Positions 24,431-53,964 of a DNA stretch of 64,000 nucleotides are shown one piece after another (the stretch's first letter is position 1; each line of letters opens with the position of its first letter). Origin of the DNA: Bradyrhizobium diazoefficiens (GTDB lineage Bacteria; Pseudomonadota; Alphaproteobacteria; Rhizobiales; Xanthobacteraceae); NCBI RefSeq assembly GCF_016599855.1, contig NZ_CP067041.1, positions 2,914,001 to 2,978,000 of the forward strand, in the 5' to 3' direction. Under the pieces are notes generated by a model. It made no database searches. It worked only from the letters and a program-made list of their open reading frames with translations, and was not told where the DNA came from. The translations under genes were made by a program, and so were the position numbers.

Positions 24431-24632
24431 AGCATTCCATTCTCTGCGCCGCCTAGTCAAGGTCGGAGCGTGCCCTTCTCGATGTCATCAGCCGCGTCAC
24501 AGCATCGTGTCAGACCGGTCGACGACGTAGTCGCGGCACATTTGCGCGAGCACGTGCGCTTGGTCAGCGTGATGATGGAACATTTTGACGGGCTGGTTCA
24601 GGCCGGGCGGCGCGGTTGAGTGGGAGCGAGCA

Positions 24633-26474: not shown

Positions 26475-26489
26475 TCGAGCGAGGACGAC

Positions 26490-27389: not shown

Positions 27390-27523
27390 GCCCGCAGGCG
27401 CTATACGGAGCGGCGGCGCAAATCAGCGAAATGGCTTTGCGCATCGGCGGCGAAGACATAGTCTGCACGTTCCGACGATGAGCCCAGCGCGCCGAAGGGG
27501 CGCGGGAAGAGCAAGGATCCACC

Positions 27524-28549: not shown

Positions 28550-28565
28550 GCAGGTCGCTCGCCGC

Positions 28566-29489: not shown

Positions 29490-29504
29490 GCGTAACTCCG
29501 TTCG

Positions 29505-30614: not shown

Positions 30615-30686
30615 CCGTATCGAACTCTGCCGGGCCTGCGGTTACCTAAAGAGCAGCTGTCCGCGACGATGCAGCCCTTCTCGATT

Positions 30687-30729
30687 CGTCATTCCGGGTT
30701 TGGTCCTTTCGGACCGCCCCGGAATGACG
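30687..30729. repeat. Palindromic intergenic element (CGTCATTCCGGG type)
   Basis: CGTCATTCCGGG at 30687 and CCCCGGAATGACG ending at 30729 form a long stem; the interior GGTCC-TTTC-GGACC makes a tip hairpin. This sequence class is recalled as a dispersed palindrome of Bradyrhizobium and relatives. It sits after the binding-protein gene and before the permeases, where it may act as a transcription attenuator. Only one copy was noticed in the window. Confidence 0.75.
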
Positions 30730-30744
30730 GTGGTCATGACGCGA

Positions 30745-34559: not shown

Positions 34560-35540
34560 CTAGCGAAACTGGCACAGCTTGCGCGCTGCGGTCACGATGC
34601 GGTCAACCGATGGCATATAGTGTTGCTCGAGGCGTGCCATTGGGATGATCGTGTCATAGCCGGTGACGCGGGTCACAGGGGCAAGCAGCGAGGCAAGGCT
34701 GCATTCAGCGACAGTGGCGGCGATCTCGGCTCCGAACCCGCCGGTGCGTGCCGCCTCGTGCACGATGATGCACCGGCCGGTCTTCGCGACGGAACGCAGC
34801 ACGGTGTCTTCATCATAGGGTTTGAGTGTGGCTAGATCGATCACCTCTGCGGAAATCCCCTCGTCAGAGAGTGCATCGGCCGCGGCCGCGGTTTCCTTCA
34901 GCACCGCGCCCCAACTGATCATCGTGATGTCGCGACCATCTCGCAACACGAAGGCACGATCCAGCGGCAAGGCCTCGCCATTGTCCTCCACCTCGCCTTT
35001 CGCCGCGCGGTAGAGGCGTGTTGGCTCCAGAAACACCACCGGATCGGGATCGCGGATCGCAGCCAGAAGAAGGCCATAGGCGCTTTCCGGCGACGAAGGC
35101 ATGACAACCCGCAAGCCGGGAATATGGGCGAGCATCGCCTCGGTGCTCTCAGAATGGTGCTCGGGAGCGCGAATGCCGGCTCCATGCGGCGTGCGCAGGA
35201 CCATCGGACAGGTGAGCCGTCCTTGGGTACGGTTGCGCATCCGGGATGCGTGGTTCACCAACTGATCGAGGCAGGGATAGATAAATCCCATAAACTGGAT
35301 CTCGCCGACCGGCCTCAGTCCCTGCGCGGCCATGCCGACGCAAAGCCCGCTGATCAGGAGTTCGGCCAGCGGCGTATCGAGCACGCGCTCCGGTCCAAAG
35401 CGCTTTTGCAAGCCTACGGTTGCGCGGAAGACGCCTCCATTGATGCCGACATCTTCGCCGAGCACGACCACGCTTGGATCATCCTCCATCGCCCGTCCGA
35501 GCGCCAGATTGACGGCCTCGACCAAGGTCACTTCAGGCAT
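34560..35540 (-). CDS. 2-oxoacid dehydrogenase E1 component, beta subunit
   Basis: A 326-residue transketolase-like protein starting PEVTLVEAVNLAL at 35540, eight bases inside the end of the alpha gene. VVVLGEDVGINGGVFRAT near residue 25, GIRAPEHHSESTEAML near 125 and VIDLATLKPYDEDTV near 230 are typical. It makes an alpha2beta2 heterotetramer with the upstream subunit and decarboxylates a 2-oxoacid onto the E2 lipoyl arm. Confidence 0.9.
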   Translation of the reverse strand: MPEVTLVEAVNLALGRAMEDDPSVVVLGEDVGINGGVFRATVGLQKRFGPERVLDTPLAELLISGLCVGMAAQGLRPVGEIQFMGFIYPCLDQLVNHASRMRNRTQGRLTCPMVLRTPHGAGIRAPEHHSESTEAMLAHIPGLRVVMPSSPESAYGLLLAAIRDPDPVVFLEPTRLYRAAKGEVEDNGEALPLDRAFVLRDGRDITMISWGAVLKETAAAADALSDEGISAEVIDLATLKPYDEDTVLRSVAKTGRCIIVHEAARTGGFGAEIAATVAECSLASLLAPVTRVTGYDTIIPMARLEQHYMPSVDRIVTAARKLCQFR

Positions 35541-36660
35541 CGTGCCCTCCCGCCAGCTCACGACGTTGCGCGGCATAAACCTCCGGCAGATTGGCATAGA
35601 GGTGATCGAACATGGTTTCGCGCCGGCGCGGTGCGGTCGTCAGATAGTGTTCGACCGCTGCCTCGATGCGCTCATTGCACTCGGCCGATAGCCGTTCCTC
35701 GTCCAATTTGCTCCAGAGTTTTTGTCCGACAAGATAGGCCCGCAGGCGCGCAATCGGCTCTTTCTTCCAATGAGCCTGGACTTCGTCAGGCGAACGATAG
35801 CGTGATGCATCGTCGGAGGTCGTGTGATCGCCGAGCCGGTAGGTGACTGCCTCGATGAAGCGGGGCCCGTTGCCATCGCGGGCTGCGGTAATGGCCTCTT
35901 CGGCTGCGGCGCGTACCGCCAGCACATCGCTCCCATCGACCTGCTCGCCGGTGAATCCGGCGGCGATAGCCTTCTGCGCCAGCGTTTCGCAACTAGTCTG
36001 TAGCCGCAACGGTACCGATATGGCCCATTGATTGTTGGTGGCGACGAACACGACCGGCAGCTTGTGCGCACCGGCAAAATTCATCGCCTCGTAAACATCA
36101 CCTTTCGACGTGGCGCCATCGCCGAACATGCAAACCGCGACACGCGGCTCCTTACGCAGCTTGAAAGCGTAAGCAACACCGGCGGCGTGTGGCGCCTGAG
36201 ATCCAACGGGAACGCAAAACGGGAAATCATTCGTCGGCCCGGAGAAATGACTGCCCCGCTCGTCCCCGCCCCAAAACAGCAGGATCTCCTCCAGCTTGAC
36301 GCCACGCCAGATCAGCGCGCCATTGTCGCGATAGGAGGGCAACAGCACGTCTTCTTCCCGCATCGCACTAGCTATTCCAGGCGATACTGCCTCTTGGCCG
36401 AGCGAGACGGCATACGTCCCAAGCCGGCCGGTCCGCTGCAGTGCAACAGCCTTTCGGTCAAAAAGTCGCACGAGCACCATGGACCGATAAAGCGCGATGA
36501 GCACCTTGGCATCCGAGGCGGAGGCGGGGAGGGGACGGTTGATCGAGCCGTCCGGCGCGAGATAATTGCGGTAGCGCACGTCAAAGCGCGCGATCACGGG
36601 CAGATCTTGATTTGTCCTGTTGCTGGCCACGCTCTCACTCCAAGCGATGCCGCCTCCCAT
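35533..36660 (-). CDS. 2-oxoacid dehydrogenase E1 component, alpha subunit
   Basis: A 375-residue ThDP-binding subunit. The cofactor motif is FGDGATSKGD followed by NNQWAIS (residues about 178-215). YAVSLGQEAVSPGIASAM near 82 and the phosphorylation-loop-like GDHTTSDDASRYR near 283 resemble the PDH/BCKDH alpha family. First gene of the three-gene operon. No E3 (lipoamide dehydrogenase) is encoded alongside, so a shared E3 from elsewhere is expected. Confidence 0.9.
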   Translation of the reverse strand: MGGGIAWSESVASNRTNQDLPVIARFDVRYRNYLAPDGSINRPLPASASDAKVLIALYRSMVLVRLFDRKAVALQRTGRLGTYAVSLGQEAVSPGIASAMREEDVLLPSYRDNGALIWRGVKLEEILLFWGGDERGSHFSGPTNDFPFCVPVGSQAPHAAGVAYAFKLRKEPRVAVCMFGDGATSKGDVYEAMNFAGAHKLPVVFVATNNQWAISVPLRLQTSCETLAQKAIAAGFTGEQVDGSDVLAVRAAAEEAITAARDGNGPRFIEAVTYRLGDHTTSDDASRYRSPDEVQAHWKKEPIARLRAYLVGQKLWSKLDEERLSAECNERIEAAVEHYLTTAPRRRETMFDHLYANLPEVYAAQRRELAGGHDA

Positions 36661-36859: not shown

Positions 36860-38098
36860 TCAATCAAGCCTCGATGGGAGGCCTCGGAGCGTCGCGGTGG
36901 CGCGCGCTATGCGTTCAACCCCCTCTGTCAGAGCTTCCAGAGATGTCGCGATTGACAGCCTGAAGTAAGGTGAGAGGCCGTAGGCCGCGCCAGCTACCAG
37001 CGCCACGCCGGCGGTGTCGAGGAAGTAAAGCACCACATCGTTGTCAGTCTCGATGCGCTTGCCGTCCTCCGTGGTCTTGCCGATCAGGCCGGCGCAATTC
37101 ACGAACAGGTAGAATGCGCCGTCTGGCGCCCGACAGCTCAGACCGGGAATTGCGTTCAGGAGCGGCAGGATGGCGTCGCGCCGCTGCTTGTAGATGGCGA
37201 CGCTTTCCGCGATGAACGACTGATCGCCGTTGAGCGCCGCGGCCGCAGCCGCCTGACTCACCGCGCAGCAGGTTCCGGCGGACTGCGACAACAACGTATC
37301 GAGCGCGCCGATCAGAGCTCGCGGGCCGGCGACCCAGCCGATGCGCCAGCCGGTCATGGCATAGGTCTTGGAGACACCGTTGATGGCGAGGGTGCGATCG
37401 CGCAGTTCGGGCGCGGCGTTGAGGAGATGTGGAGTCGGCTTGCCGTCGAACCGAATGTGCTCGTAGATGTCGTCAGTCATGACCATGACGTGCGGATGCT
37501 TGACGAGCACGTCCGCGAGCGCGCGGTATTCGGCAGCGCTATAGCTGGCACCGGTCGGATTGCTCGGCGAGTTGATCAGCAGCCAGCGCGTTTTGGAAGT
37601 GATGGCGGCTTCCAGCTGCTCGGGCGACAGCTTGAAGCCGTGGTTCTCGCCGCAGGAGATCGTCACCGGCGTGCCGTCGCAAGCCAGCACCATGTCCGGA
37701 TAGGATACCCAGTACGGCGCCGGAATGATGACCTCGTCACCCTCCTCGACGGTCGCTGCGAGCGCGCTGTAGATCGCGCTCTTGGCGCCGTTGGTCACGA
37801 TGATCTCGTCGACACCGTAGCTCAGCGCGTTTTCGTGCTTGAGCTTGGCTGCGATCGCCTCCCGCAATTCCTGCGTTCCCCGCATCGAGGTGTAGCGGGT
37901 CGCACCATGGTCCATTGCGTATGCGGCCGCCTTGCGGATGTGGGGCGGCGTGTCGAAATCCGGCTCGCCGACCACTAGGCTCACGATCTGCTTGCCCTGT
38001 CGCCGTAGCTCATTGGCCCGATCGGCGGCCACGGTGCTGGGTGACGGCTTGATGCGTCTGATGCGCCCTGCGAGGTTGTAGGAGTTCACGGCAGGCAT
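36860..38098 (-). CDS. PLP-dependent aminotransferase (class I, aspartate type)
   Basis: A 412-residue fold-type I aminotransferase. NSPSNPTGASY near residue 175 and NGVSKTYAMTGWRIGWVAGP near 240-260 (PLP Lys and phosphate-binding Arg) are diagnostic; the C-terminal FRLSI near 380 holds the carboxylate-binding Arg. It is divergent from the LysR gene, with an ATAAG-N5-CTTAT site between them, so it probably belongs to the same regulon as the PxpABC cluster, moving amino groups from the released amino acid. The substrate is probably aspartate, glutamate or an aromatic amino acid. Confidence 0.88.
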   Translation of the reverse strand: MPAVNSYNLAGRIRRIKPSPSTVAADRANELRRQGKQIVSLVVGEPDFDTPPHIRKAAAYAMDHGATRYTSMRGTQELREAIAAKLKHENALSYGVDEIIVTNGAKSAIYSALAATVEEGDEVIIPAPYWVSYPDMVLACDGTPVTISCGENHGFKLSPEQLEAAITSKTRWLLINSPSNPTGASYSAAEYRALADVLVKHPHVMVMTDDIYEHIRFDGKPTPHLLNAAPELRDRTLAINGVSKTYAMTGWRIGWVAGPRALIGALDTLLSQSAGTCCAVSQAAAAAALNGDQSFIAESVAIYKQRRDAILPLLNAIPGLSCRAPDGAFYLFVNCAGLIGKTTEDGKRIETDNDVVLYFLDTAGVALVAGAAYGLSPYFRLSIATSLEALTEGVERIARATATLRGLPSRLD

Positions 38099-38175: not shown

Positions 38176-38190
38176 ATAAGAACCTCTTAT
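38176..38190. promoter_or_regulatory. LysR/Nac-type site ATAAG-N5-CTTAT in the aminotransferase-lysR gap
   Basis: ATAAG-AACCT-CTTAT is a 15-base interrupted palindrome fitting both T-N11-A and the Nac pattern ATA-N9-TAT. It is 61 bases before the lysR start and 77 before the aminotransferase start. Two more copies precede the 39.3 kb and 44.0 kb operons. Confidence 0.7.
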
Positions 38191-38251
38191 GGCTGGTGCG
38201 GAAATCGACTAGACTTCGGTGAGCGATGGTCAGCGGAACGGGAGAAACGAC

Positions 38252-39148
38252 GTGAACTTGAGGCGCCTGCAGTATTTCGTGAAGATTGTCGATATCGGCA
38301 GTCTGACGCAGGCCGCCGACATTCTTCACGTGGCGCAGCCCGCGCTCAGCCAGCAATTGGCAACGTTGGAAGGCGAGGTACGTCAGCAGCTATTGTTGCG
38401 CACCAAGCGCGGTGTGGTGCCAACCGAAGCCGGTAAGGTTCTCTACAGGCATGCCCAGCTCATCTTGCGGCAATGGGACCAGGCCAACGCCGACATGAAG
38501 GCGGCAGGGCAGGGCCTCTCCGGCGCTGTGTCAGTGGGGCTCGCGCCGGGAACGGCTGCCGCGCGTCTGTCGCTGCCTCTTCTGCGCACTGCGCGGGCGC
38601 GTCACCCCGGCATCCTGCTTTATCTCAACGAGACCTATGGCACGACGCTGTCGGAGCTCGTAATGAATGGGCGGATGGATATCGCGGTGCTCTATGGCGG
38701 CCAGACCACCGTGCATGGATTGAGGTTCGTTCCGCTGTTCAAGGAGCAACTGTACTTGGTGGGTCCCGACAGCATGGTCGCGTCCCCCAGCGAAGTGCCG
38801 CTGCACACGATCGCTGATCTGGATCTCTACCTCCCGCGGCCCTACAACGTCGTGCGAAGAATGGTGAACGAGGCATTCGCAGGACTCGGGATGACGCCGC
38901 GCGTGGTCGCGGAAATCGAATCGGCCGGAACACTGTCGGCCGTAATCGCCAGCGGCCTCGGCGCGACGATTTTGCCGGAATCCATGGCACGTGAGGTTGC
39001 CCGATCCTCCAACGCCTGGCTGTCTCGCATCATCCAGCCGACCATCGAGGCGCCCTTGGCGCTCTGCCAGTCGGATCATTTGCCGCTGTCGGAGCCGGCT
39101 TCGGCAATCAAGGAAATTTTGCTGGAACTCGTCGCGAGCCTCTCGTGA
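38252..39148 (+). CDS. LysR-family regulator, Nac-like
   Basis: A 298-residue LysR-type regulator from the GTG at 38252, which has GGAGAA at good spacing. The helix-turn-helix lies in residues 1-60 (LRRLQYFVKIVDIGSLTQAA, QPALSQQLATLE). The substrate-binding domain follows. The N-terminus and the repeated ATA-N9-TAT sites suggest the Nac/Cbl branch. It probably controls itself, the divergent aminotransferase, and the two downstream transcription units. Confidence 0.85.
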   Translation: MNLRRLQYFVKIVDIGSLTQAADILHVAQPALSQQLATLEGEVRQQLLLRTKRGVVPTEAGKVLYRHAQLILRQWDQANADMKAAGQGLSGAVSVGLAPGTAAARLSLPLLRTARARHPGILLYLNETYGTTLSELVMNGRMDIAVLYGGQTTVHGLRFVPLFKEQLYLVGPDSMVASPSEVPLHTIADLDLYLPRPYNVVRRMVNEAFAGLGMTPRVVAEIESAGTLSAVIASGLGATILPESMAREVARSSNAWLSRIIQPTIEAPLALCQSDHLPLSEPASAIKEILLELVASLS

Positions 39149-39187: not shown

Positions 39188-39202
39188 ATAAGCACCCCTT
39201 AT
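39188..39202. promoter_or_regulatory. LysR/Nac-type site upstream of the carboxylase-pxp operon
   Basis: ATAAG-CACCC-CTTAT. Thirteen bases after it comes ATTCCGTCTT, a box found at the same distance after the site at 43910. The first gene starts 93 bases downstream. Confidence 0.72.
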
Positions 39203-39294: not shown

Positions 39295-39717
39295 ATGGAC
39301 CTGGCGCAGATCAAGGCGTTCATTGACGCGATGGCATCGTCCGACCTTGCCGAGCTCGAGGCGAGCAAAGACGGCTGGACGCTTCGGTTGGTGCGCAATG
39401 GTGTGCGAAGCCATTCCGTGACTCCGGTCGCGGCCGCGAACCGATCGCCGTCTCGTCCAAATGCCCCTGTTGAAGCGGCCCCGGCGCCGGAGATCTGTGC
39501 GCCGCTTTCCGGCATCGTCTATCTGCGCCCCGGACCGGATCAGCCTCCTTACGTCGAGGTCGGTCAGGCGATCAAGGCCGGCATGGCGGTCTGTGTTATC
39601 GAGGCGATGAAGACGTTCATCGAAATCCGCGCCGAACGGGACGGGATCGTCGAAGCGATCCTCGTCGCTCCCGGAACCCTTGTCGACGCAGGTCAGCCGC
39701 TGATGCGCACCGTCTGA
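39295..39717 (+). CDS. accB: Biotin carboxyl carrier protein
   Basis: A 140-residue carrier. The N-terminal region is the usual flexible part, then a Pro/Ala-rich linker (residues about 50-65), and a C-terminal biotinyl domain with IEAMKTFIEI; Lys at about 106 would carry biotin. It precedes a biotin carboxylase by six bases. Rather than fatty-acid synthesis, the context (PxpB, PxpC, PxpA) points to a dedicated carboxylase for a cyclic amide or related substrate. Confidence 0.9.
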   Translation: MDLAQIKAFIDAMASSDLAELEASKDGWTLRLVRNGVRSHSVTPVAAANRSPSRPNAPVEAAPAPEICAPLSGIVYLRPGPDQPPYVEVGQAIKAGMAVCVIEAMKTFIEIRAERDGIVEAILVAPGTLVDAGQPLMRTV

Positions 39718-39723
39718 GGAGCC

Positions 39724-41079
39724 ATGTTCGAGTCCGTTCTGATCGCAAACCGCGGGGAGATTGCGCTTCGTATCCAGCGGGCGTGTCGGAGCCTCGGCCT
39801 GCGCACCATCGTCGTCTATTCCGAGGCCGATCGCGATGCGCCCTATGTCGAACGCGCGGATGTCGCGGTCTGCATCGGTCCGCCCGCGGCGACGTATAGC
39901 TATCTCGATCAGGCCGCCATCTTGCTGGCGGCCAAGGCGACGGGTGCTGAAGCCATTCACCCCGGATACGGATTTCTGGCCGAGAACGCCCTGTTCGCTG
40001 AGCGTGTCAGCCAGGCTGGGTTGACCTTCATCGGTCCTTCCGCCGCCTGCATTCGGACCATGGGTGACAAGGTCGCCGCCAAGAAGGCGATGCGCGCAGC
40101 GGGCGTGCCCTGCGTTCCCGGCCCCGATGCAACCTTGCCGGATGATCCCGAGGCCGTTCGTCGTCTCGCTCAAGAGATCGGCTATCCCGTCATCGTCAAA
40201 GCCGCAGGCGGAGGTGGCGGGCGAGGGATGCGGATCGTCACCGAGGAGGCCGCGCTGCTCGATGCGCTCGCGGTCACGCGTGAGGAAGCGCGACGCGCCT
40301 TCGACAACGGCGAAGTCTATATCGAAAAATTCCTGACCCATCCCCGGCACGTCGAAATCCAGGTGCTCGCGGATGGGCATGGCCAGGCGCTTTGGCTCGG
40401 CAGCCGGGACTGCTCGCTGCAGCGCCGGCACCAGAAGGTCATCGAAGAGGCGCCCGCGCCGGGAATCGCGGATGCGCTCATTGCCGAGATCGGCGAGCGC
40501 TGCGCGCGGGCCTGCCAGCAGATCCAGTACCAGGGGCTCGGCACCTTCGAGTTCCTGTTCGAAGACGGCGCATTCTATTTCATCGAGATGAACACGCGGC
40601 TGCAGGTCGAGCATCCCGTCACCGAGATGACGGCCGGGATCGACATCGTCCAGCAGCAGATCCGCGTCGCGCGCGGGGAGCGACTGACGTTGACGCAGGC
40701 TGATATTTGCTGCCGCGGACATGCCTTCGAGTGCCGGATCAATGCCGAGAATCCGGATAGCTTCGCGCCGTCACCGGGTCGCATCACCGGCTGGGAGCTT
40801 CCGGGCGGCTATGGCGTGCGCGTCGACAGCCACGCCGGTGCTGGCTACACCGTCTCACCGCACTACGATTCCATGATCGCAAAGCTGATCGTCCATGGCG
40901 ACGACCGTGCCGATGCGCTGGCGCGCTTGCGGCTCGCGCTCGATGAAATGAGCGTCTCGGGGATCTCCACCAATTTGCCGCTGCATCGCCGCATCGTGTC
41001 GGATCCGACATTCAGCTCCGGGGCGGTTGACATCCATTATCTCGAACGCCGCCTGCGCGAGGGAGCACCTCACGCATGA
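39724..41079 (+). CDS. accC: Biotin carboxylase subunit
   Basis: A 451-residue ATP-grasp enzyme that carboxylates biotin with ATP and bicarbonate. The N-terminus LIANRGEIALRIQRACRSLG is the family signature; ATP loop KAAGGGGGRGMRIV near residue 158, catalytic EAPAPGI near 240 and EMNTRLQVEHPVTE near 285 are present. Overlaps pxpB by four bases. It would supply carboxybiotin to the adjacent PxpB/PxpC, which resemble the carboxyltransferase half of urea carboxylase. Confidence 0.92.
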   Translation: MFESVLIANRGEIALRIQRACRSLGLRTIVVYSEADRDAPYVERADVAVCIGPPAATYSYLDQAAILLAAKATGAEAIHPGYGFLAENALFAERVSQAGLTFIGPSAACIRTMGDKVAAKKAMRAAGVPCVPGPDATLPDDPEAVRRLAQEIGYPVIVKAAGGGGGRGMRIVTEEAALLDALAVTREEARRAFDNGEVYIEKFLTHPRHVEIQVLADGHGQALWLGSRDCSLQRRHQKVIEEAPAPGIADALIAEIGERCARACQQIQYQGLGTFEFLFEDGAFYFIEMNTRLQVEHPVTEMTAGIDIVQQQIRVARGERLTLTQADICCRGHAFECRINAENPDSFAPSPGRITGWELPGGYGVRVDSHAGAGYTVSPHYDSMIAKLIVHGDDRADALARLRLALDEMSVSGISTNLPLHRRIVSDPTFSSGAVDIHYLERRLREGAPHA

Positions 41080-41735
41080 GCGCCGATGAGCCCCGGATCA
41101 GTCTGCTTGGAACGAGCGCCTTGTTGTTCGATGCGCCCGGTCCGACGGAGCTCGACACGCAGCGGCGGATCTGGGCACTGGCCGAAGAGGCCGCGCATTG
41201 GCCTGAAATTCGCGAGGCCGTGCCGGGCATGAACAACGTCATGCTCAGCTTTAAGCGGCCGCCCGGTTCGCTTGCGTCGATCGGAGCGAGGCTACGATCG
41301 GCCTGGGCCAGCGCCCCGGCGCTCGAGCTGGAAGGCCGGCTGATCGAGCTGCCGGTGGTCTATGGCGGCGAGGGCGGGCCGCATGTCGCCGACGTCGTCG
41401 CACATACGGGATTGAGCCTCGACGACATCGCCGAAATCCATAGTGCGCCGATCTATCACGTCTACGCTCTCGGCAGTCATCCCGGCTATTGCTATCTCGG
41501 CGGCATGGACCAGCGGATCGCTACGCCGCGGCGTAAGACCCCTACGCTGAGGATTCCGGGAGGAGCCGTTTCAATCGGCGGCGGTCAGACCGGCGTGTCC
41601 GCATCGCCCGGGCCGAGCGGCTGGAATACGATCGGCAGCACGGAGATGCATTTCTTTGACCCGGCCAGCGACCCGCCGGCGCTGCTGCGTCCCGGTGACA
41701 GCATCCGCTTTCGCATCGCGGCGGTGATCCGATGA
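41076..41735 (+). CDS. pxpB: PxpB/KipI-type subunit (allophanate hydrolase subunit 1 family)
   Basis: A 219-residue protein of the AHS1 family. Conserved blocks include ELPVVYGGEGGPHVADVVAH near residue 88, LGSHPGYCYLGGMD near 130 and IPGGAVSIGGGQTGVSASPG near 157. Known as 5-oxoprolinase subunit B, and homologous to a domain of urea carboxylase. ATGA overlaps on both sides imply stoichiometric synthesis with PxpC. Confidence 0.9.
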   Translation: MSADEPRISLLGTSALLFDAPGPTELDTQRRIWALAEEAAHWPEIREAVPGMNNVMLSFKRPPGSLASIGARLRSAWASAPALELEGRLIELPVVYGGEGGPHVADVVAHTGLSLDDIAEIHSAPIYHVYALGSHPGYCYLGGMDQRIATPRRKTPTLRIPGGAVSIGGGQTGVSASPGPSGWNTIGSTEMHFFDPASDPPALLRPGDSIRFRIAAVIR

Positions 41736-42715
41736 TCGAGGTCATCGCCACCGGCGGACTTGCGACTATTCAGGATCTTGGTCGCAGGGGCGCGCTCAAA
41801 TGGGGCGTCGGTACCTCGGGTGCCATGGATGACCTTGCAGTCGCGGCCGGCAACATCCTGCTCGGCAATCCCGATGACGCGGCGGCGATCGAGGTCCAGC
41901 TTTTTCCGTTTCGGATCCACTTCCAGGAGGACACAACGTTCGCTGTGACCGGAGCAGATTGCGACGGGAGGCTCGATGATCTCGCGATTCTGCCATGGTG
42001 CGTGCATCATGCCAGCGCCGGACAGGTGCTTCATCTCGGACTTCCCCGGCGCGACGGTTGGGCCGCGAGCCGCGCCTATCTTTGCCTTGCCGCCGGCGTC
42101 GATGTGCCATCGGTGCTGGGGTCGCGCAGCACGCAGTTGCGTGGTGAATTTGGTGGTCTCGAAGGACGCGCCCTTCGCACAGGCGACAAGATTGCGACCG
42201 GACCGTTTCGAGCAGCGGGTGCACGCGTGGGCCTCAATCCGCCAGCGTTGGCGATGCCGCTGATGGTGGATGGCCTGCCGGCCGTACGGGTGCTTCGCGC
42301 CGCCGAGTACGAGGCCTATACGCCGCGGGCTCAGGCAAGTCTGTGGAGCGAGCCATGGCGGATTTCGCCGCAAAGCGATCGCTACGGGTTTCGGCTCGAG
42401 GGCACCCCATTGATGCCGAAGGCGCCGCTCGAATTGCGCTCGCACGGGATCGTGCCGGGGGTGATTCAGGTGCCGCATGGCGGTCAGCCCATCGTGCAGA
42501 TGCGCGATGCCCAGCCGTCCGGCGGCTATCCCAAGATCGGAACCGTCATCGAGGCCGACTTGTGGCGCCTCGGGCAGGCGCCGATTGGCAGCCGCATTCG
42601 CTTTGTCGAGGTGACCTGGGATGACGCTGTCGCGGCCCAGGATGCGAACGACCGCTGGCTTGCCGAAGCGCGGCGCCTCGTCGGTCTTTTCCGTGTACGG
42701 CGGGGAGGGCGATGA
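41732..42715 (+). CDS. pxpC: PxpC/KipA-type subunit (biotin-dependent carboxyltransferase family)
   Basis: A 327-residue AHS2 protein. The N-terminus IEVIATGGLATIQDLGRRGA, then GTSGAMDD and NILLGNPDDAAAIE near 45, are characteristic; the C-terminal GVIQVPHGGQPIVQMRDAQP and GGYPKIGTV near 260 complete the fold. Forms the catalytic partner of PxpB. In urea carboxylase the corresponding domain moves CO2 from biotin to the amide nitrogen. Confidence 0.9.
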   Translation: MIEVIATGGLATIQDLGRRGALKWGVGTSGAMDDLAVAAGNILLGNPDDAAAIEVQLFPFRIHFQEDTTFAVTGADCDGRLDDLAILPWCVHHASAGQVLHLGLPRRDGWAASRAYLCLAAGVDVPSVLGSRSTQLRGEFGGLEGRALRTGDKIATGPFRAAGARVGLNPPALAMPLMVDGLPAVRVLRAAEYEAYTPRAQASLWSEPWRISPQSDRYGFRLEGTPLMPKAPLELRSHGIVPGVIQVPHGGQPIVQMRDAQPSGGYPKIGTVIEADLWRLGQAPIGSRIRFVEVTWDDAVAAQDANDRWLAEARRLVGLFRVRRGGR

Positions 42716-43119
42716 TGCCGTTCCAGCATGTCGACCAGCTCTCGTTGTGGCTTGCCGAAGCGGGCATCGACTCCCTCGAACTGAGCGGCCCAGACCGCGA
42801 ACTGCGTCTCGGGCGCACCGTCCAGCAGGGGCTTGAAGCAAAGCCCACGGACCCCGCGCGCGCGGTCACTCACGCCGTGAGGGCGCCGATGGTGGGGACC
42901 CTGCTGCATAGCCATCCGATGCGGCGCGTTCCGCTCGCGCCCCGTGGGAGCCTGGTTCGCGCCGGCCAGACGGTCGCGCTATTGCAAGTTGGCGCGCTGC
43001 TGGTTCCGATCGACGCGCCCTGTGACGGGGTGGTCGTCGAGGTGCTGGCAGAAGAGGGCGCGCTCGTCGGGTTTGGCGCCGAGATCACCCGACTTTCGGA
43101 CATCGCGAGCGAGGCTTGA
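42712..43119 (+). CDS. Biotinyl-domain protein lacking the biotin lysine
   Basis: A 135-residue protein with the layout of a biotin carrier: N-terminal part, linker (about 38-50), then a lipoyl/biotinyl barrel from VRAPMVGTLL near residue 57. Where carriers have EAMK, this one reads LLQVGALLVPI (residues about 90-100), Ala replacing the Lys at about 95. It cannot be biotinylated there. It starts inside the pxpC stop and overlaps pxpA, so it belongs to the complex. A structural or competitive role is possible. Confidence 0.82.
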   Translation: MMPFQHVDQLSLWLAEAGIDSLELSGPDRELRLGRTVQQGLEAKPTDPARAVTHAVRAPMVGTLLHSHPMRRVPLAPRGSLVRAGQTVALLQVGALLVPIDAPCDGVVVEVLAEEGALVGFGAEITRLSDIASEA

Positions 43120-43892
43120 CCATGAACATCGACCTCAATGCCGATCTTGCCGAGGGCTATGGGCCCTGGCGCATGGGCGACGACACCGCGCTCCTCGACG
43201 TGCTGTCGTCGGCCAACTTGGCTTGTGGATTTCATGCGGGCGATCCGCTGATCATGCAGCGCACCGTCGAGCTCGCCATGGCGCGCGGCGTGGACATCGG
43301 CGCCCATGTCGGCTTCCCCGATCGCCAGGGCTTTGGACGCCGCGTCATGCAGATCGATATCACCGAGCTCGCAGCGATCGTGACCTACCAGCTTGGAGCG
43401 CTCGACGGCATCTGCCGCGCGCGCGGCGCGCGCATGACGCATATGAGCTTTCACGGTGCGCTCGGCAACATGGTTGCGGCAGATCATGCCCTGGCGGCCG
43501 CCCTGGTGCGCGCGGTTGCGACCTTCGATCCGAAACTGATCCTGCTCACCTCGGCAAGCCGCGCCATGGAAGCGGCCGCCAGCGATTGCGGCTTGCGGGC
43601 CGCGATAACCTTCCTGGCGGATCGCGCTTATGACGATGATGGCCTCTTGGTGTCACGCAAGCTTGCCGGATCGGTGATCCACGATCGTGCCCAGGTGCTT
43701 GAGCGGGTCAAGCGCATCCTGCGCCAGGGCGAGGTCGTGACCCACAGCGGCAACACGCTGGCGCTGCGCCCCGCCAGCATTCTGCTGCACGGTGATACCG
43801 ACGGCGCCGTCGATCTGGCGAGAGCCATCCGCGAGGAGGTGGTGGCCAGCGGTGCCAGCATTGTACCCATTTCGCGACAAGGATGCCGCTGA
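43116..43892 (+). CDS. pxpA: PxpA (LamB/YcsF family), 5-oxoprolinase subunit A
   Basis: A 258-residue TIM-barrel-like protein. The N-terminus MNIDLNADLAEGYGPW and SANLACGFHAGDP near residue 31 are diagnostic; HVGFPDRQGFGRR near 61 and VTHSGNTLALRPASILLHGD near 208 also match. With PxpB and PxpC it hydrolyses 5-oxoproline to glutamate at the cost of ATP. In this operon a biotin carboxylase and carrier are added. Last gene of the five-gene coupled set after accB. Confidence 0.92.
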   Translation: MTMNIDLNADLAEGYGPWRMGDDTALLDVLSSANLACGFHAGDPLIMQRTVELAMARGVDIGAHVGFPDRQGFGRRVMQIDITELAAIVTYQLGALDGICRARGARMTHMSFHGALGNMVAADHALAAALVRAVATFDPKLILLTSASRAMEAAASDCGLRAAITFLADRAYDDDGLLVSRKLAGSVIHDRAQVLERVKRILRQGEVVTHSGNTLALRPASILLHGDTDGAVDLARAIREEVVASGASIVPISRQGCR

Positions 43893-43909: not shown

Positions 43910-43924
43910 ATAAGGCAGCCTTAT
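43910..43924. promoter_or_regulatory. LysR/Nac-type site upstream of the SDR-ABC operon
   Basis: ATAAG-GCAGC-CTTAT, an exact arm match to the sites at 38176 and 39188. TAATCCGTCTT follows at the same distance as ATTCCGTCTT does after the second site. The SDR gene starts 75 bases downstream. Confidence 0.72.
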
Positions 43925-43998: not shown

Positions 43999-44763
43999 AT
44001 GCCGTTTTCAGATTATCGAAAGGCCCTCGTGACCGGCGCCTCTTCCGGCATTGGAGCCGCAACCGTCGAACGATTGCGCCGAGAGGGCCTGGAAGTGCAC
44101 GCGCTGGCCCGTAGCGCAAATGCCCTTGGCGAGCTGAAGCAGCGGACCGGCTGCATTGCCCATGCAATCGATGTGACGGATCTCGCCGGAGTCACGAAGC
44201 TGGCGAACGAAGTTGAGTTCGACATTCTCGTCAACAATGCCGGCGTCGATCGGCCGAAGCCATTCCTCAAGGCCGACGCCGAGGACATCGACCTCATTGT
44301 CGATGTGAACCTACGCGCGGTGCTGCATCTCTGCCGCCTGATCTTGCCGGGCATGGTCGCGCGCGACCGCGGCCACATCGTCAATATCAGCTCGATCGCC
44401 GGTGCGTACAATTTCGGGGGAAACTCCTCCTATCACGCGACGAAGGCAGCCATCAGCATGTTGTCGAGTCAGCTTCGCATCGACGTGTTCGGCCGCCGGG
44501 TTCGCGTCACCGAGATATGTCCGGGCCGCGTCGCGACCGACATTTTCGCCCATGTCCACGGCGCTTCAAAGGAAACCCAAGAGCGCTTCATTGAAGGCTA
44601 CGAGCTGCCCGAAGCGAAGGACATCGCGGGCGCCATCGCGTTTGCGATTGCCGCGCCCATTGCGGTGAATGTCGGATACATGGAGATCACCCCGACGCTC
44701 CAGGTTCCCGGCGGACTGTCGACGGCGAAGGGTGCCGCGTCCGCTGCCGAGCCGAGCCGCTGA
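43999..44763 (+). CDS. SDR-family oxidoreductase
   Basis: A 254-residue classical short-chain dehydrogenase. TGASSGIGAATVERL near residue 13 binds the cofactor, VNNAGVD is near 80, the catalytic Ser is in NISSIAGAY near 132 and YHATK lies near 149. It resembles the YdfG (3-hydroxy acid dehydrogenase) group. First gene of the second LysR-linked operon, ten bases before a permease gene; likely oxidises a hydroxy-amino acid imported by that transporter. Confidence 0.87.
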   Translation: MPFSDYRKALVTGASSGIGAATVERLRREGLEVHALARSANALGELKQRTGCIAHAIDVTDLAGVTKLANEVEFDILVNNAGVDRPKPFLKADAEDIDLIVDVNLRAVLHLCRLILPGMVARDRGHIVNISSIAGAYNFGGNSSYHATKAAISMLSSQLRIDVFGRRVRVTEICPGRVATDIFAHVHGASKETQERFIEGYELPEAKDIAGAIAFAIAAPIAVNVGYMEITPTLQVPGGLSTAKGAASAAEPSR

Positions 44764-44772
44764 GTCCGCGCA

Positions 44773-45474
44773 ATGAGCAGTCTCGACCTCTCAGCGATCC
44801 TGCTCAACCCCCAATATAGCCGGATGCTGCTCGACGGCTTCGAGATGACGCTGATAGTAGCGATCGGCTCCTGGCTGCTGGCGATGAGTCTCGGCATCCT
44901 GCTGCTCGTCGTTCGGCTGGCGCCGAGCCGGATCGCGGACCGCGCCGTGGCCGCCTACATCTCCTACCATCAGAATGTACCCACGCTCGTGCAGCTCATG
45001 CTGTGGTACTTCGGCATCTCGAGCCTGCTCCCTCTCGTCCTTCAGGACTGGATCAGCATGCATAACGGCGAAGCGATCTTCGCCGTGATCGGGCTCGGAT
45101 TGTGTCAAGCGGCCTATTTCAGCGAAGACCTGCGCTCTGGCCTGCGGTCGGTTGTGGCCGGACAGATGGAGGCGGCAAAGGCGCTCGGGCACGGCTACAT
45201 CAGCGCGATGCGCTATGTGATGATGCCGCAAGCTGTACGAAACGCGCTGCCCCCGCTCATCAACCATACGGTTTCGCTGTTCAAGAACAGCAGCCTTGCG
45301 GTCGCGATCGGCGTCACCGAACTGTTGCATGCCGTGAAGGAGGTCGAAAACCAGAGTTTTCGTACGTTCGAAACCTATCTGATCGCGACGATCGTCTATC
45401 TCGCCTGCTCGTTGCTGCTGATGGGGGTTGGCGCCTGGTTGAGCCGTCGGTCGCGTCCGGTGGGAGCCACCTGA
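44773..45474 (+). CDS. Polar amino-acid ABC transporter permease 1
   Basis: A 233-residue HisM/GltK-type permease with about five helices. The conserved loop is VVAGQMEAAKALGHGYISAM near residues 127-147. Hydrophobic N-terminal segment MTLIVAIGSWLLAMSLGILL. It pairs with the permease five bases downstream. Confidence 0.9.
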   Translation: MSSLDLSAILLNPQYSRMLLDGFEMTLIVAIGSWLLAMSLGILLLVVRLAPSRIADRAVAAYISYHQNVPTLVQLMLWYFGISSLLPLVLQDWISMHNGEAIFAVIGLGLCQAAYFSEDLRSGLRSVVAGQMEAAKALGHGYISAMRYVMMPQAVRNALPPLINHTVSLFKNSSLAVAIGVTELLHAVKEVENQSFRTFETYLIATIVYLACSLLLMGVGAWLSRRSRPVGAT

Positions 45475-45478: not shown

Positions 45479-46252
45479 ATGCTGATCAACATCTACCAGA
45501 TCGTCGCGGATAACTGGCTCCTGCTGTTGATCGGACAATTTCCGAATGGTCCGCTTGGCGGCATTGCCGCGACGCTGCTGCTGTCGATTCTCGGCATCGG
45601 TCTGGCCTTTCCGCTGAGCATTCTGGTGGCGCTCGCCCGGATTTCTCACTGGCCGATGTTGAGCTGGCCCGCCACGGCGCTCGTCTATGTCATGCGCGGC
45701 GTACCGCTCCTGATGATCATCTTCTGGGTCTACTTTCTGCTGCCGCTGCTGATCGGACGCATCGTGCCCGGCTTTGTGGCGATGGTCTGCACACTAGTCG
45801 TCTACGAGTCGGCATTTCTGAGCGAGATCGTTCGTGCCGGCATCCAGGCTCTCCCCAGGGGACAGATGGATGCGGCGCGCGCGCTCGGCCACGGTCACTT
45901 TTCGGCCATGCGCTACGTCATTCTGCCGCAGGCGCTCTACAACATGATCCCGAGCATCCTCAGCCAGTTCGTAGCCACGATCAAGGAAACGACGCTCGCG
46001 TACGTCATTAACGTTCCCGAGCTGACCTTCGCCGCCAGTCAGATCAATAATCAGCTCCTGACCAAGCCGTTCGAGGTCTTCTTCGTTCTTGCCATCATCT
46101 ATTTCGCGGTCTGTTGGACATTGACGCAGCTCGCTAACTGGCTGGAGCGCCGCATCGCCGCAAAGCGTGCGGGACACGGCACCGCTCAACAGGCAAGCGC
46201 GGTTGGCGCTGCGGTGATTGGGCCCGAGACCGTTCAGGAGATCATACAATGA
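45479..46252 (+). CDS. Polar amino-acid ABC transporter permease 2
   Basis: A 257-residue permease of the same family, with the loop [20 protein letters not shown] near residues 122-142 and the later segment [18 protein letters not shown] near 170. It carries an extra C-terminal tail of about 25 residues ([20 protein letters not shown]). Its stop overlaps the ATPase start (ATGA). Confidence 0.9.
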
Positions 46253-46986
46253 TCAAATTCTGCAACGTCAACAAGTGGTATGGCAGCTATCAAGCGCTCG
46301 CCGACATCAACGCCGAGGTGAAGCGCGGAGAGGTCGTGGTTGTGTGCGGTCCGTCCGGTTCGGGCAAGTCGACCCTGATCCGGACGGTCAATCGGCTCGA
46401 GGGGATTCAGTCCGGTGAGCTCATGTTCGACGGCCAGAATGTCCACGCCAAGATGAGTGGAGCGCAGCTCAACCGCTTGCGTAGTCACATCGGCTTCGTT
46501 TTCCAAAGCTTCAACCTGTTTCCCCATCTGTCGGCCCTCGACAATATCATGCTCTCGCCGATGAAGATCAAAGGCGTCGATCGCACCAAGGCCCATGACA
46601 AGGCGATGCAGTTGTTGGACCGCGTCGGGCTCGCATCGAAGGCGTCAGCGTATCCGGCGCAGCTATCTGGCGGTCAACAGCAGCGCGTCGCAATCGCACG
46701 CGCGCTGGCGATGGAGCCCCCGGCGATGCTGTTCGACGAGCCGACCAGTGCGCTTGATCCGGAAATGGTCGGCGAGGTTCTCGCGGTCATGCGCAGCCTT
46801 GCAAACGAAGGAATGACCATGATGTGCGTGACCCACGAGATGGGTTTCGCGCGCGAAGTGGCCGACCGCGTCTGGTTCATGGATGCCGGCCGCATCGTCG
46901 AGATTGCGACGCCGGACAAGTTCTTTGGCAATCCGGAGCATCCCCGCGCCAAACGCTTCCTGTCGGACTTGCGCACGCGCTACTAG
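46249..46986 (+). CDS. Polar amino-acid ABC transporter ATP-binding protein
   Basis: A 245-residue GlnQ/HisP-type ATPase. Walker [13 protein letters not shown] near residue 34, Q-loop [13 protein letters not shown] near 84, signature [15 protein letters not shown] near 139, Walker [12 protein letters not shown] near 162 and H-loop VTHEMGFA near 194. Completes the transporter with the binding protein 31 bases downstream. Confidence 0.94.
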
Positions 46987-47017: not shown

Positions 47018-47860
47018 ATGCATTTGACCGGCCCGTTACTGACAACCGCGCTCGTTGCCGCGAGCCTCGTAGGGGCTAGCGCGGCGCGAGCTGATCAGCT
47101 CCAGGACATCATGCAGCGCAAGGAATTGCGTTGCGGGACGTTCGCCGATGTGCCGCCGTTCGCGGCGCCGGATCCCAAGACGCGCGAGATGGTCGGGTTT
47201 GACGTCGATCTGTGCGGCGCCATCGCCAAGCGGCTCGGTGTGACTGCCAAGATCACGCCACTGTCGGTCGAGGCGCGAGTTCCCGAGGTCAAGCTCGGGC
47301 ACGTCGACATTGCCGTGGCCAACTTGGCCTACACAGTAAGCCGTGCCGAGCAGATCCAGTTCAGTGATCCCTACTATATCGCCAAGGAAATGCTGGCGGT
47401 GCGGGCAAGCGACCCCGGCAAGACCACGCAAGATTTCAAGGGCAAGCGGCTGGCCGCTACCAAGGGTTCGACGTCTGAGTTGTCGGTCAAGCTCAACGGG
47501 TCCCATCCTCTCGTATTTCAGGACACCGGATCGGTCTTCATGGCGGTCCAGCAGAACAAGGCAGCGGGAATGGTCGCCAATACGATGACGATCGTGAAGC
47601 TGGTCGCTGAATCCAAGAAGGGAGGTGTCGAACTGAAGATGATCGACGACCCCATGCTGCTCGAACCGATCGGTGTCGGGATGAAGAAGGATGAACCGGC
47701 GCTGCTCGCCAAGATCAATGAGACGCTCGTCGCGATGGACGGCGCCGGCGAGATCAATCAGCTCTGGAACAAGTGGCTGGGTCCGGAGACCGAGTATCGC
47801 CTGACCCGGACCGAAAAGGTCGTACCGCTCAGCGAGTTGAAGTTCACGCCGATACCGTGA
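47018..47860 (+). CDS. Amino-acid ABC transporter substrate-binding protein
   Basis: A 280-residue family 3 binding protein from the ATG at 47018 with GGAGGAGG just upstream. The signal peptide ends near SAARADQ (residue 25). MVGFDVDLCGAIAKRLGV near 60 and ANLAYTVSRAEQIQFSDPYY near 100 are family hallmarks. The ligand is likely an amino acid or its cyclic amide such as 5-oxoproline, given the co-regulated PxpABC genes. Confidence 0.9.
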   Translation: MHLTGPLLTTALVAASLVGASAARADQLQDIMQRKELRCGTFADVPPFAAPDPKTREMVGFDVDLCGAIAKRLGVTAKITPLSVEARVPEVKLGHVDIAVANLAYTVSRAEQIQFSDPYYIAKEMLAVRASDPGKTTQDFKGKRLAATKGSTSELSVKLNGSHPLVFQDTGSVFMAVQQNKAAGMVANTMTIVKLVAESKKGGVELKMIDDPMLLEPIGVGMKKDEPALLAKINETLVAMDGAGEINQLWNKWLGPETEYRLTRTEKVVPLSELKFTPIP

Positions 47861-47962: not shown

Positions 47963-48634
47963 ATGGTGCACGTCATTCGATCTTTTGAACGGCCGGATCC
48001 GGCTGCCGTCAAGGACATCTCGCAATATGCGCCCTCGACCTTGCACGAGGCGCAGGGCCGTACGGGCGCGCTGACATCTCGGATCAAGCCGATCTATTCG
48101 GGCATGCGCGCCTGCGGGCCGGCGCTGACGGCAAGCTGTCATCCGAGCGACAACCTGATGCTCATTACGGCGATCAGCCTCGCCCAGCCCGGCGACGTCT
48201 TGATCGTCAGCGCCGGGGATCATCCGGAGCAGGGGGGATTCGGCGAGGTGTTGACGACGGCCTGCATGGCGAAAGGCATCGTCGGCCTGGTCACAGACGC
48301 GGGCGTGCGCGACGGCCTGGCGATCCGCAAACGCGGATTCAACGTCTTCTGCTATGGCTTGTCCATGAAAGGAACGGTCAAGGAGACACTCGGTACCATC
48401 AACCAGCCGATCGTGATCGGTGGCGTTGCCATTAACCCCGGCGACATCATCAGCGCGGATGACGATGGTGTCGTCGTGGTCCCGAAAAGCAATATTGCAG
48501 CGGTTGTCAAAGCGTCGGCAGAGCGCGAGGCCAAGGAAGCGCGGATGATGGCCGCCCTGGAAGCGAAGGGGAGCATCCTCGAACTCTCGGGAATGGACAA
48601 AGTCCTTGCTCTGAAGAATTGCACCTACGGCTGA
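47963..48634 (+). CDS. RraA-family aldolase / oxaloacetate decarboxylase
   Basis: A 223-residue protein of the RraA/HMG-aldolase family. VTDAGVRDGLAIRKRGF (residues about 111-127) carries the Arg-Asp pair that binds substrate and metal, and DDDGVVVVP near 173 is the C-terminal signature. Members split 4-hydroxy-4-methyl-2-oxoglutarate or 4-carboxy-4-hydroxy-2-oxoadipate to pyruvate, or decarboxylate oxaloacetate. It ends the LysR-linked operon after a 102-base gap and may handle the carbon skeleton of the imported compound. Confidence 0.87.
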   Translation: MVHVIRSFERPDPAAVKDISQYAPSTLHEAQGRTGALTSRIKPIYSGMRACGPALTASCHPSDNLMLITAISLAQPGDVLIVSAGDHPEQGGFGEVLTTACMAKGIVGLVTDAGVRDGLAIRKRGFNVFCYGLSMKGTVKETLGTINQPIVIGGVAINPGDIISADDDGVVVVPKSNIAAVVKASAEREAKEARMMAALEAKGSILELSGMDKVLALKNCTYG

Positions 48635-49664: not shown

Positions 49665-50468
49665 TCATATCGTGTGCTTACCCGCAGGTGAAGTGGCGAG
49701 CGGGTGCGATGGGACGTCCGGCGCATGCTGTGGCTGCGGAGCTTCCGGCGCGAACGCGGCGAACAGACCATCATAAGGCTTGATCCGCGGCGAGGCATAG
49801 CCGCCATGCTTTGATGTCTTGTGGCCGAGGCTCACCAGGCCTTCAGCGAGTTTCACCGCCGCGCCGACACCGTCCACGACGGGAAGGCTGTGCTCGCGCG
49901 ATAGCTCCGCAGCGAGATCGGCCATGCCGGCGCAGCCCAGCACGATCGCTTCGGCCCGGTCCTCGACCACGGCCTTTGCGATCTCGGCCGAGATGCGTTG
50001 GCGTGCGTCCGAGCCGGGAATCTCGAGATCGAGCACTGGTATTTCCGATGCCCGTACCCGTGCGCAGCGGCCGGCCAAGCCGTATTTGGTGAGGTTGTGC
50101 TCGATTGCTGAGACCGAGCGCGACAACGTCGTCACAACGCTGAAACGACCTGCCAGCAGGCTGGCCATGTGGAAAGCGGCTTCGCCAATGCCGATAACTG
50201 GCGCGGTGGTGAGGCAGCGCGCTGCATCCAGCCCAGTGTCGTCGAAACAGGCAATCACGTAGGCGTCCACGTCTGGCGCGGCGCGCATTTGTGCCAGCAG
50301 GCCTGGAATCGAGAAGACTTCGTCATAGTAGCCTTCGATGCTCGGCGGGCCGTACAACGGGTTGACAGCCTGAATCGCGGTGTCGGCGGCTGCGGCCGCT
50401 TGGGCCGCCGCGCCGATCTTGTGCGTCATTGATGCGGTAGTATTGGGATTGATGACCAGAATGCGCAT
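49665..50468 (-). CDS. Asp/Glu/hydantoin racemase family protein
   Basis: A 267-residue protein from RILVINPNTTASMT at 50468, the classic start of hydantoin and allantoin racemases. The two catalytic cysteines are in IACFDDTG near residue 76 and VLGCAGMADL near 180. The ~25 C-terminal residues are Pro/Ala-rich and not part of the fold. It is 17 bases after livF, so transport and racemisation are coupled. A scrap of a PuuE-type allantoinase gene at 55.4 kb supports a hydantoin/allantoin-like substrate; the exact one is unknown. Confidence 0.86.
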   Translation of the reverse strand: MRILVINPNTTASMTHKIGAAAQAAAAADTAIQAVNPLYGPPSIEGYYDEVFSIPGLLAQMRAAPDVDAYVIACFDDTGLDAARCLTTAPVIGIGEAAFHMASLLAGRFSVVTTLSRSVSAIEHNLTKYGLAGRCARVRASEIPVLDLEIPGSDARQRISAEIAKAVVEDRAEAIVLGCAGMADLAAELSREHSLPVVDGVGAAVKLAEGLVSLGHKTSKHGGYASPRIKPYDGLFAAFAPEAPQPQHAPDVPSHPLATSPAGKHTI

Positions 50469-50485
50469 GGATGTTCGACCTGAAC

Positions 50486-51208
50486 TCACAATTCACCGCC
50501 AAGATAGAGCGTCTTGATGCGTTCATCGTTGACTAGCTCGGCCGAAGGCCCGGAGAGCGCGACGGCACCAGTCGAGAGCGCATAGGCGCGGGCGGATATC
50601 TTGAGCGCGATGCGCGAATTCTGCTCGACGAGTAGCACGCTGACCTGCTCGTCGCGATTGATGGCGACGATCGACCGGGCGATGTCCTGCACCAGTTTGG
50701 GCGCGATGCCGAGCGAGGGTTCGTCGAGCAGGAGCAGCGTCGGACGGCTCATCAGCGCGCGGCCGATGACCAGCATCTGCTGCTCGCCGCCACTCATGGT
50801 TCCTGCCGCCTGGCTATAACGTTCGCGTAGCCGCGGAAAGCGCGTGAGTACTGCCTCCAGCGTATTCGCGACTTCGGCTTTGTCGCGGCGAGTGAAGGCG
50901 CCCATCAGGAGATTGTCCTTCACCGACATCAGGGGAAACGAACGGCGTCCCTCCGGAACCATGGCGATACCCATCTTCACCAGCTCATCGGGGGCGCAGC
51001 CATCAATGCGCCGGCCGCGAAAGCGAATTTCGCCTTTGCGGATCTTGCGAAGGCCGGTGATGGCGCGCAAGATCGAGGTCTTTCCCGCGCCATTGGCGCC
51101 GATCAGCGCTACCGTCTCGCCCTCATTGACCTCAAGCGAGACGTTCCGCAGGGCGTAAACCCGATCGTAGTAGAGTTCGACGCCGGAGAAGGTGAGCAGC
51201 GGCTCCAT
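50486..51208 (-). CDS. livF: Branched-chain-type ABC transporter ATP-binding protein
   Basis: A 240-residue LivF-type ATPase. Walker A GANGAGKTSILRAI near residue 37, Q-loop MVPEGRRSFPLMSV near 82, signature MSGGEQQMLVIGRAL near 137 and Walker B LLLLDEPSLGI near 155. Three bases after livG. Together with LivG it energises the LivHM channel. Confidence 0.92.
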   Translation of the reverse strand: MEPLLTFSGVELYYDRVYALRNVSLEVNEGETVALIGANGAGKTSILRAITGLRKIRKGEIRFRGRRIDGCAPDELVKMGIAMVPEGRRSFPLMSVKDNLLMGAFTRRDKAEVANTLEAVLTRFPRLRERYSQAAGTMSGGEQQMLVIGRALMSRPTLLLLDEPSLGIAPKLVQDIARSIVAINRDEQVSVLLVEQNSRIALKISARAYALSTGAVALSGPSAELVNDERIKTLYLGGEL

Positions 51209-51211
51209 CGA

Positions 51212-51991: not shown

Positions 51992-51994
51992 GGC

Positions 51995-52972: not shown

Positions 52973-52974
52973 TG

Positions 52975-53841: not shown

Positions 53842-53964
53842 GTCCGGTCCCGTTCGAGGGAGCGCGCGCAATCCGTTGCGCGCTGCGGCTTGCGTGAGCG
53901 GCGGCGAGGCGAGGGCGAACGATGCCAGCACTAAGCTGGCGCCGCCCGCACCCGGTCAGACGTG

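Follow-up and report, generated by a model that had tools for sequence, protein, structure and literature searches.

The 64,000-nt window analysed here (Bradyrhizobium diazoefficiens, assembly GCF_016599855.1, NZ_CP067041.1, positions 2,914,001–2,978,000) carries one six-gene operon in which biotin carboxylase genes are joined to relatives of the PxpABC 5-oxoprolinase; all coordinates below are those of the window. The genes lie on the plus strand in the order accB, accC, pxpB, pxpC, accB2 and pxpA (39295–43892). accB (39295–39717; PF00364, TIGR00531) encodes a biotin carboxyl carrier protein (BCCP) with the biotinyl Lys in an EAMKTF motif, and accC (39724–41079; TIGR00514 and its catalytic positions) encodes the biotin carboxylase subunit. 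pxpB (41076–41735) and pxpC (41732–42715; PF02626, TIGR00724) correspond to subdomains C/D and A/B of a carboxyltransferase, respectively. accB2 (42712–43119) encodes a BCCP-like protein that lacks the biotinyl Lys; pxpA (43122–43892; PF03746, 302 bits) encodes a LamB/YcsF family hydrolase with SFHG in place of KPHG. A preliminary description of this DNA had listed the six genes in this order and had called them coupled, most by ATGA overlaps. Our analysis confirmed that the cluster is real: ATGA overlaps join accC to pxpB (41076–41079), pxpB to pxpC (41732–41735) and pxpC to accB2 (42712–42715), which makes three of the five junctions; accB and accC are spaced by 6 nt, and pxpA starts either at ATG 43122 or at TTG 43116, the latter overlapping the accB2 stop codon. 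AccC, PxpB, PxpA (at the subfamily level) and PxpC (TIGR00724/CT_A_B) all pass curated cut-offs. Two features go beyond that description: the second carrier has no biotinyl Lys, and the unit extends past 39295–43892 on both sides.

The arrangement was compared with the best 80 of 240 confirmed matches to the window PxpB, which have at least 67% identity in the best segment. In this set, which is enriched for close kin, is made of loci that are not independent and includes some short contigs that cost some genes, all six core genes are together in 73/80 loci, and accC, pxpB and pxpC in 79/80. Counted gene by gene, homologs were found for pxpB and pxpC in 80, accC in 79, accB in 78, accB2 in 77 and pxpA in 76 of the loci. 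The tight junctions are kept as well; the 3′ end of pxpB is ATGA, GTGA or TTGA in 80/80 related loci, and so is that of accC in 76/79.

AccC scored 653 bits against TIGR00514 (cut-off 626), and its catalytic positions, which we take to be those of the E. coli biotin carboxylase, are kept at 10/10 in 80/80 rows over 430 aa. AccB reached 93 bits against the BCCP model TIGR00531, under the cut-off of 115; its biotinyl Lys is present in 81/81 aligned rows. At 3.634 Mb the genome has a further accB/accC pair, from which these two are distinct; in all, it holds nine biotin-carboxylase domains in 7.1 Mb. For accB2, the claim of a second carrier-like gene stands only in part: a BCCP-like gene is in place, but biotin at the usual site is impossible, as Lys at that site or one residue to either side occurs in 0/120 homologs and 0/80 locus rows. 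A Met-Lys pair is found elsewhere in the chain in one of 80 AccB2 rows. The AccB2 profile also spans the BCCP N-terminal region (4hr7_B), and databases often name the lysine-less AccB2 a biotin carboxyl carrier protein. Like AccB2, the BADC proteins of plants are BCCP-like without the biotinylation motif; the plant proteins interact with BCCP and biotin carboxylase, as stated in the parts of PMC11926652 relied on here; among the matches listed, the BADC literature consists of plant papers. Different from AccB2, BADC are subunits of the plastid acetyl-CoA carboxylase.

PxpB (219 aa) passed the equivalog model TIGR00370 with 195.8 bits (cut-off 145.55). PxpC (327 aa) fell short of the equivalog model NF045499 (288 bits, cut-off 500), while it passed the wider domain model TIGR00724 (301 over 230). 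The two had been called homologous to the carboxyltransferase part of urea carboxylase, and this holds for PxpC by sequence (phmmer pairs it with 3va7, the urea carboxylase of K. lactis) and for PxpB by predicted fold. Like the window's genes, urea carboxylase/urea amidolyase (KlUC, PDB 3va7 and 5i8i) combines a biotin carboxylase, a biotin carrier and a carboxyltransferase of PxpC-like and PxpB-like halves; in the sections of PMC5770610 used here, the K. lactis enzyme carries out a carboxylation step that is followed by a hydrolase. Different from it, the window encodes separate proteins, whereas each of six fetched urea carboxylase loci is one long frame (AccC, PxpC, PxpB-like); the partner is PxpA instead of allophanate hydrolase, and there is the additional lysine-less BCCP-like protein. 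Conserved positions of both PxpB and PxpC are changed relative to the stand-alone proteins. The printed rows of the window's kind of PxpB read GSHPGYCYLGG...PRRK.P...PGGAVSIGG.QTGVSAS.GPSGWNT, and stand-alone rows mostly have GF.PGF and SPGGW.

A biotin carboxylase beside PxpBC homologs is also found in PDB entry 9yx5 (released 2025-11-26), whose title describes a long chain acyl-CoA carboxylase complex of Mycobacterium smegmatis with MSMEG_0435-MSMEG_0436 bound. According to the entry title and molecule names, its sequences include the biotin carboxylase AccA3 and PxpB/PxpC homologs, so that, as in the window, PxpC and PxpB homologs are accompanied by a biotin carboxylase/BCCP protein in one solved entry. 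Unlike here, AccA3 is a subunit common to several acyl-CoA carboxylases, and the PxpB homolog of 9yx5 is only 28% identical to the window PxpB in the structural alignment. In the nitrogen-limitation table of PMC4617892, MSMEG_0435 is up 2.4-fold and MSMEG_0436 2.2-fold. No paper for 9yx5 was found in the open-licence PMC literature.

PxpA passed two subfamily models, NF003814 (321.6 over 226) and NF003816 (236 over 213), and stayed under the cut-offs of the equivalog models NF003812, NF003813 and NF003815. Like the E. coli (YbgJKL) and B. subtilis 5-oxoprolinases, the window encodes homologs of PxpA, PxpB and PxpC within a single operon; different from these stand-alone sets, it has its own AccB/AccC and AccB2, altered conserved positions in PxpB and PxpC, and a PxpA without the KPHG Lys. 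Position 109, that of this Lys, is Ser in 77/77 rows of the window's type (type I below) and Lys in 25/25 stand-alone rows; positions 63, 165 and 221 are also changed. Given the changed PxpA and PxpB residues, the substrate or the chemistry appears to be shifted in the window clade.

The window's genome contains four PxpB domains: that of the window, one in a stand-alone pxpB-pxpC-pxpA set (L006) and two in L005. Positions 7907–16977 of L005 hold a second biotin-linked set, accB, accC, pxpB, pxpC and accB2, with an SDR, a NAC-like regulator and an RraA of its own; it faces another pxpB-pxpC-pxpA, so that AccBC and AccB2 are with one PxpBC set and PxpA is with the other. To a wider sample of the phylum belong 150 genomes including the window's own, 45 of which have a PxpB domain. 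From it, 41 PxpB places outside the window's genome that are not urea carboxylase were fetched, together with six urea carboxylase places; the latter kind was recognised by a frame length of at least 1180 aa, and six of them by domains. accC lies within the fetched 7–13 kb stretch at 12 of the 41 loci, against ∼0.7 of 41 expected from the density of biotin-carboxylase domains in the window's genome (9 in 7.1 Mb). Since all six genes are kept together in 73 of the 80 relatives and accC recurs near PxpB at these 12 loci, a chance neighbourhood was ruled out.

Using labels defined in this analysis from gene order, we distinguished types I to III. Three accC-bearing loci have an accB2-like second carrier (L125, L143 and L152); by eye, the L125 carrier shows Ser where the biotinyl Lys would be, followed directly by Lys. 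The six type II loci (L132, L136, L142, L147, L148 and L151) have pxpA, a BCCP-bearing AccC and, in 5/6, a fused PxpBC; the two AccC printed in full, of L132 and L136, have AMKME in the BCCP part. In the three type III loci (L160, L162 and L163), the order is pxpA-accB-accC-pxpB-pxpC, and PxpB is urea carboxylase-like with the base Lys kept, which may make these loci the best candidates for a carboxyltransferase. The PxpC tree has one clade (100/100) for type II and one (100/100) for type III; type II is far from the window clade, type III stands beside urea carboxylase, though not firmly (93/88), and type I is elsewhere, with the L124/L125 pair (100/99). Joint grouping of 26 biotin-linked or biotin-neighbouring rows with the six urea carboxylase rows was rejected (p-AU 0.0028), in a set that has long branches and includes two PxpC rows merely near AccBC (L005 'q' and L143). 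With three separate clades and joint grouping rejected, the AccBC-PxpBC link probably arose or disappeared on more than one occasion.

As a side observation, the passages of PMC8453981 on the Pseudomonas putida 5-oxoprolinase give polypeptides of 64, 51 and 82 kDa. Judged by mass alone, these fit PxpB and PxpC poorly and the fused AccC-BCCP of type II (570–608 aa; L132, L136 and L142) better.

The conserved neighbourhood is larger than the six genes. Upstream lie a divergent aminotransferase of the aspartate transaminase PRK06107 type (36860–38098, minus strand; PF00155; NF004769 693 bits, cut-off 617; 73/80 related loci) and a LysR-type regulator of the NAC family (38219–39148, plus strand; equivalog NF008410 passed with 473 bits, cut-off 309; 75/80). 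Downstream, all on the plus strand, follow an SDR family oxidoreductase (43999–44763; PF00106; 74/80) and an amino acid ABC transporter, its parts named after the RefSeq entries of a relative: permease 1 (44773–45474; 73/80), permease 2 (45479–46252; 71/80) and the ATP-binding protein (46249–46986; 71/80). The substrate-binding protein (47018–47860; 71/80), whose start was set by eye at the Met of the signal peptide, has TIGR01096, under cut-off, as its best NCBIfam match. Next comes an RraA-like aldolase/decarboxylase (47963–48634; PF03737); an RraA-like gene occurs in 62/80 related loci, often as a distant paralogue at the aminotransferase end of the cluster.

One palindrome, ATAAG-N5-CTTAT, links these parts. 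It is present in the gap between aminotransferase and regulator (38176–38190), upstream of accB (39188–39202) and in the pxpA-SDR gap (43910–43924). Three copies of these 15 bases in the window compare with 0.00 expected, and three of the four places in the 7.1-Mb genome are in the cluster; the fourth is near an open reading frame whose translation reads as phosphoglycolate-phosphatase-like. Enteric NAC binds ATA-N9-TAT. Within the window, this looser pattern picks out no places beyond these three; 1.16 matches are expected and 14 of 100 shuffles reach three, a number unremarkable alone. Among the related loci it is present in 73/73 regulator-accB gaps (the full palindrome in 61) and in 69/73 pxpA-SDR gaps, compared with 0.1% and 1.2% of base-shuffled gaps, respectively. 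ATA-N9-TAT was not found in loci L171, L173 and L143, and L005 and L038 have one non-palindromic copy each. We read the cluster as a putative regulon of three transcription units.

The cluster is patchy in its distribution. In the class sample, where only matches above 100 bits were taken as AccB2 and the rest were read as ordinary AccB, AccB2 occurs in one of 142 genomes, the window's own; of 12 congeneric relatives, one (G007) has a clear copy. AccB2 matches 16 plasmid records; seven of these are Bradyrhizobium from peanut material, and the seven are perhaps near-copies, because their lengths are nearly equal. The set recurs on Paracoccus, Allorhizobium and Mesorhizobium plasmids, with the gene order changed in the latter two; by eye, all three have AMK at the site in AccB and not in AccB2. 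The Mesorhizobium plasmid PxpA has VKAH, with the Lys kept, and the Paracoccus one has NPHG, with the Lys gone.

Several neighbours in the window were also noted. Just past the RraA-like gene, at 49668–55206 on the minus strand, are an Asp/Glu/hydantoin racemase (PF01177) and then a branched-chain-type ABC transporter; this block might belong to a cyclic-amide theme, although it is on the other strand. At 34560–36660 (minus strand), an E1 beta-like (PF02779/PF02780) and, by eye, an E1 alpha-like protein of a 2-oxoacid dehydrogenase adjoin the aminotransferase. Farther upstream, 24585–32406 encodes a thiamine pyrophosphate enzyme, a xylose-isomerase-like protein, an aldo/keto reductase and ABC components including a solute-binding protein, which we take to resemble inositol catabolism.

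What could such a set of proteins do? From the sequences, we propose a nitrogen-scavenging catabolic cluster whose first enzyme would be a biotin-driven lactamase, and we give this scheme, taken as a whole, an even chance of being right. With its intact residues, AccC would use ATP and bicarbonate to carboxylate biotin on AccB; PxpB-PxpC would act as a urea carboxylase-like carboxyltransferase that transfers CO2 to a lactam's amide nitrogen; PxpA would hydrolyse the activated ring, and the carbamate would then lose CO2. AccB2 may be a subunit that helps to assemble or regulate the AccC-AccB core, in the manner of BADC in plants. Judging from the shared sites and the conserved neighbourhood, uptake would be by the ABC transporter, and the freed amino acid would pass to the aminotransferase, the SDR and the RraA-like aldolase. 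The preliminary description had suggested N-carboxylation by these proteins followed by PxpA hydrolysis. This idea is plausible, and better supported than was known then, because AccB and AccC are intact, their association with PxpBC is conserved and recurs in three separate PxpC clades, and 9yx5 sets a precedent. A broader proposal is more tentative, and we lean against it somewhat: PxpBC as a class would be N-carboxylating lactam activators, fed by dedicated (AccBC) or shared (mycobacterial AccA3) biotin carboxylases, with PxpA for ring-opening and a BADC-like assembly factor. No description of a biotin-linked PxpABC was recognised in the open-licence PMC literature.

Several observations weigh against the lactamase scheme. 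The general base of urea carboxylase, Lys1605 of the K. lactis enzyme (KlUA; PMC5770610, as far as consulted), aligns to the Lys of GTKYNPSR, and window PxpB has Arg152 in this column. Arg occupies it in 81/81 type I, 30/30 stand-alone and 6/6 type II rows, and Lys only in 3/3 type III and 6/6 urea carboxylase rows; in this respect the carboxylation idea did not hold up. accC is absent from the fetched stretch at 29 of the 41 sampled PxpB loci, and the rearranged loci L005, L171 and L173 lack the palindrome or have a degenerate form of it. Types II and III are biotin-linked too and retain the PxpA Lys, so the absence of this residue does not go hand in hand with carboxylation, nor is it a general mark of biotin linkage; it may still point to a non-phosphorylated intermediate. 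Recombinant PxpA, PxpB and PxpC together were reportedly sufficient for 5-oxoprolinase activity (Niehaus, 2017); this and the missing urea carboxylase Lys are the weightiest objections. ATP-dependent phosphorylation is assumed for stand-alone PxpABC in the relevant part of PMC13274462; for both reasons, PxpBC need not be carboxyltransferases. An unlikely alternative built on these points is that PxpBC activate the lactam with ATP, like stand-alone PxpBC, while AccB, AccC and AccB2 serve a separate pathway step or only regulate. The shared Arg and the reported sufficiency of PxpABC would suit it, as would Mesorhizobium AR02, in which pxpC-pxpB are on the opposite strand to accB-accC-accB2-pxpA. 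However, no other carboxyltransferase accompanies accBC among the scanned genes of the window cluster, the next start codon overlaps the accC stop in 76/79 loci, and PxpBC homologs have been solved with a biotin carboxylase complex.

It is possible, though rather improbable, that AccBC-PxpBC carboxylates something other than a lactam (an open-chain amide, an amidine, a urea-like compound or a carbon acid), with PxpA as a different hydrolase acting on the carboxylated product. The substrate of urea carboxylase is itself an open-chain amide, as described in the sections of PMC5770610 used here; the window's PxpA clade lacks the stand-alone Lys, conserved PxpB and PxpC positions differ, and making glutamate from 5-oxoproline would require no aminotransferase, SDR or RraA-like aldolase. 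Against this, PxpA is still near its family, scoring 322 bits with an NCBIfam subfamily model, and the activity given for PxpA in the published material consulted is lactam opening. Database names, which are those of acetyl-CoA carboxylase and 5-oxoprolinase subunits, would suggest a 5-oxoprolinase lying by chance beside a redundant fatty-acid AccBC; this was rejected as highly improbable in view of the conservation across related loci, the repeated association, the shared palindromes and the second such locus in the same genome.

Returning to the biotin-driven lactamase, 5-oxoproline, which had been listed among the compounds to assay, is disfavoured, because the genome also has a stand-alone PxpBCA and the window PxpA has lost the KPHG Lys. 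A different, substituted lactam is the probable substrate. Lactams of the peanut compounds 4-methylene- and 4-hydroxy-4-methyl-glutamate come to mind, which we offer as guesswork; the aminotransferase and the RraA-type aldolase would fit them, the SDR not obviously. A search for the substrate through the gene neighbours and the fourth genomic palindrome found no pointer.

Taken together, the cluster is a new combination of known parts in a soil or root bacterium, in a setting richer than the preliminary description had it. If the proposal is true, bacteria would open unactivated lactams by the trick of urea carboxylase, in a bicarbonate-driven reaction distinct from phosphorylation, and a plant-derived substrate would fit the peanut-derived plasmid carriers. 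It would explain the repeated occurrence of biotin carboxylase genes next to PxpBC and the presence of PxpBC homologs in a solved acyl-CoA carboxylase complex of a mycobacterium; AccB2 would be a bacterial counterpart of plant BADC, and the database names acetyl-CoA carboxylase and 5-oxoprolinase subunits would need correction. Under the broader proposal, some of the 'ATP-dependent 5-oxoprolinases' would in fact need bicarbonate and biotin.

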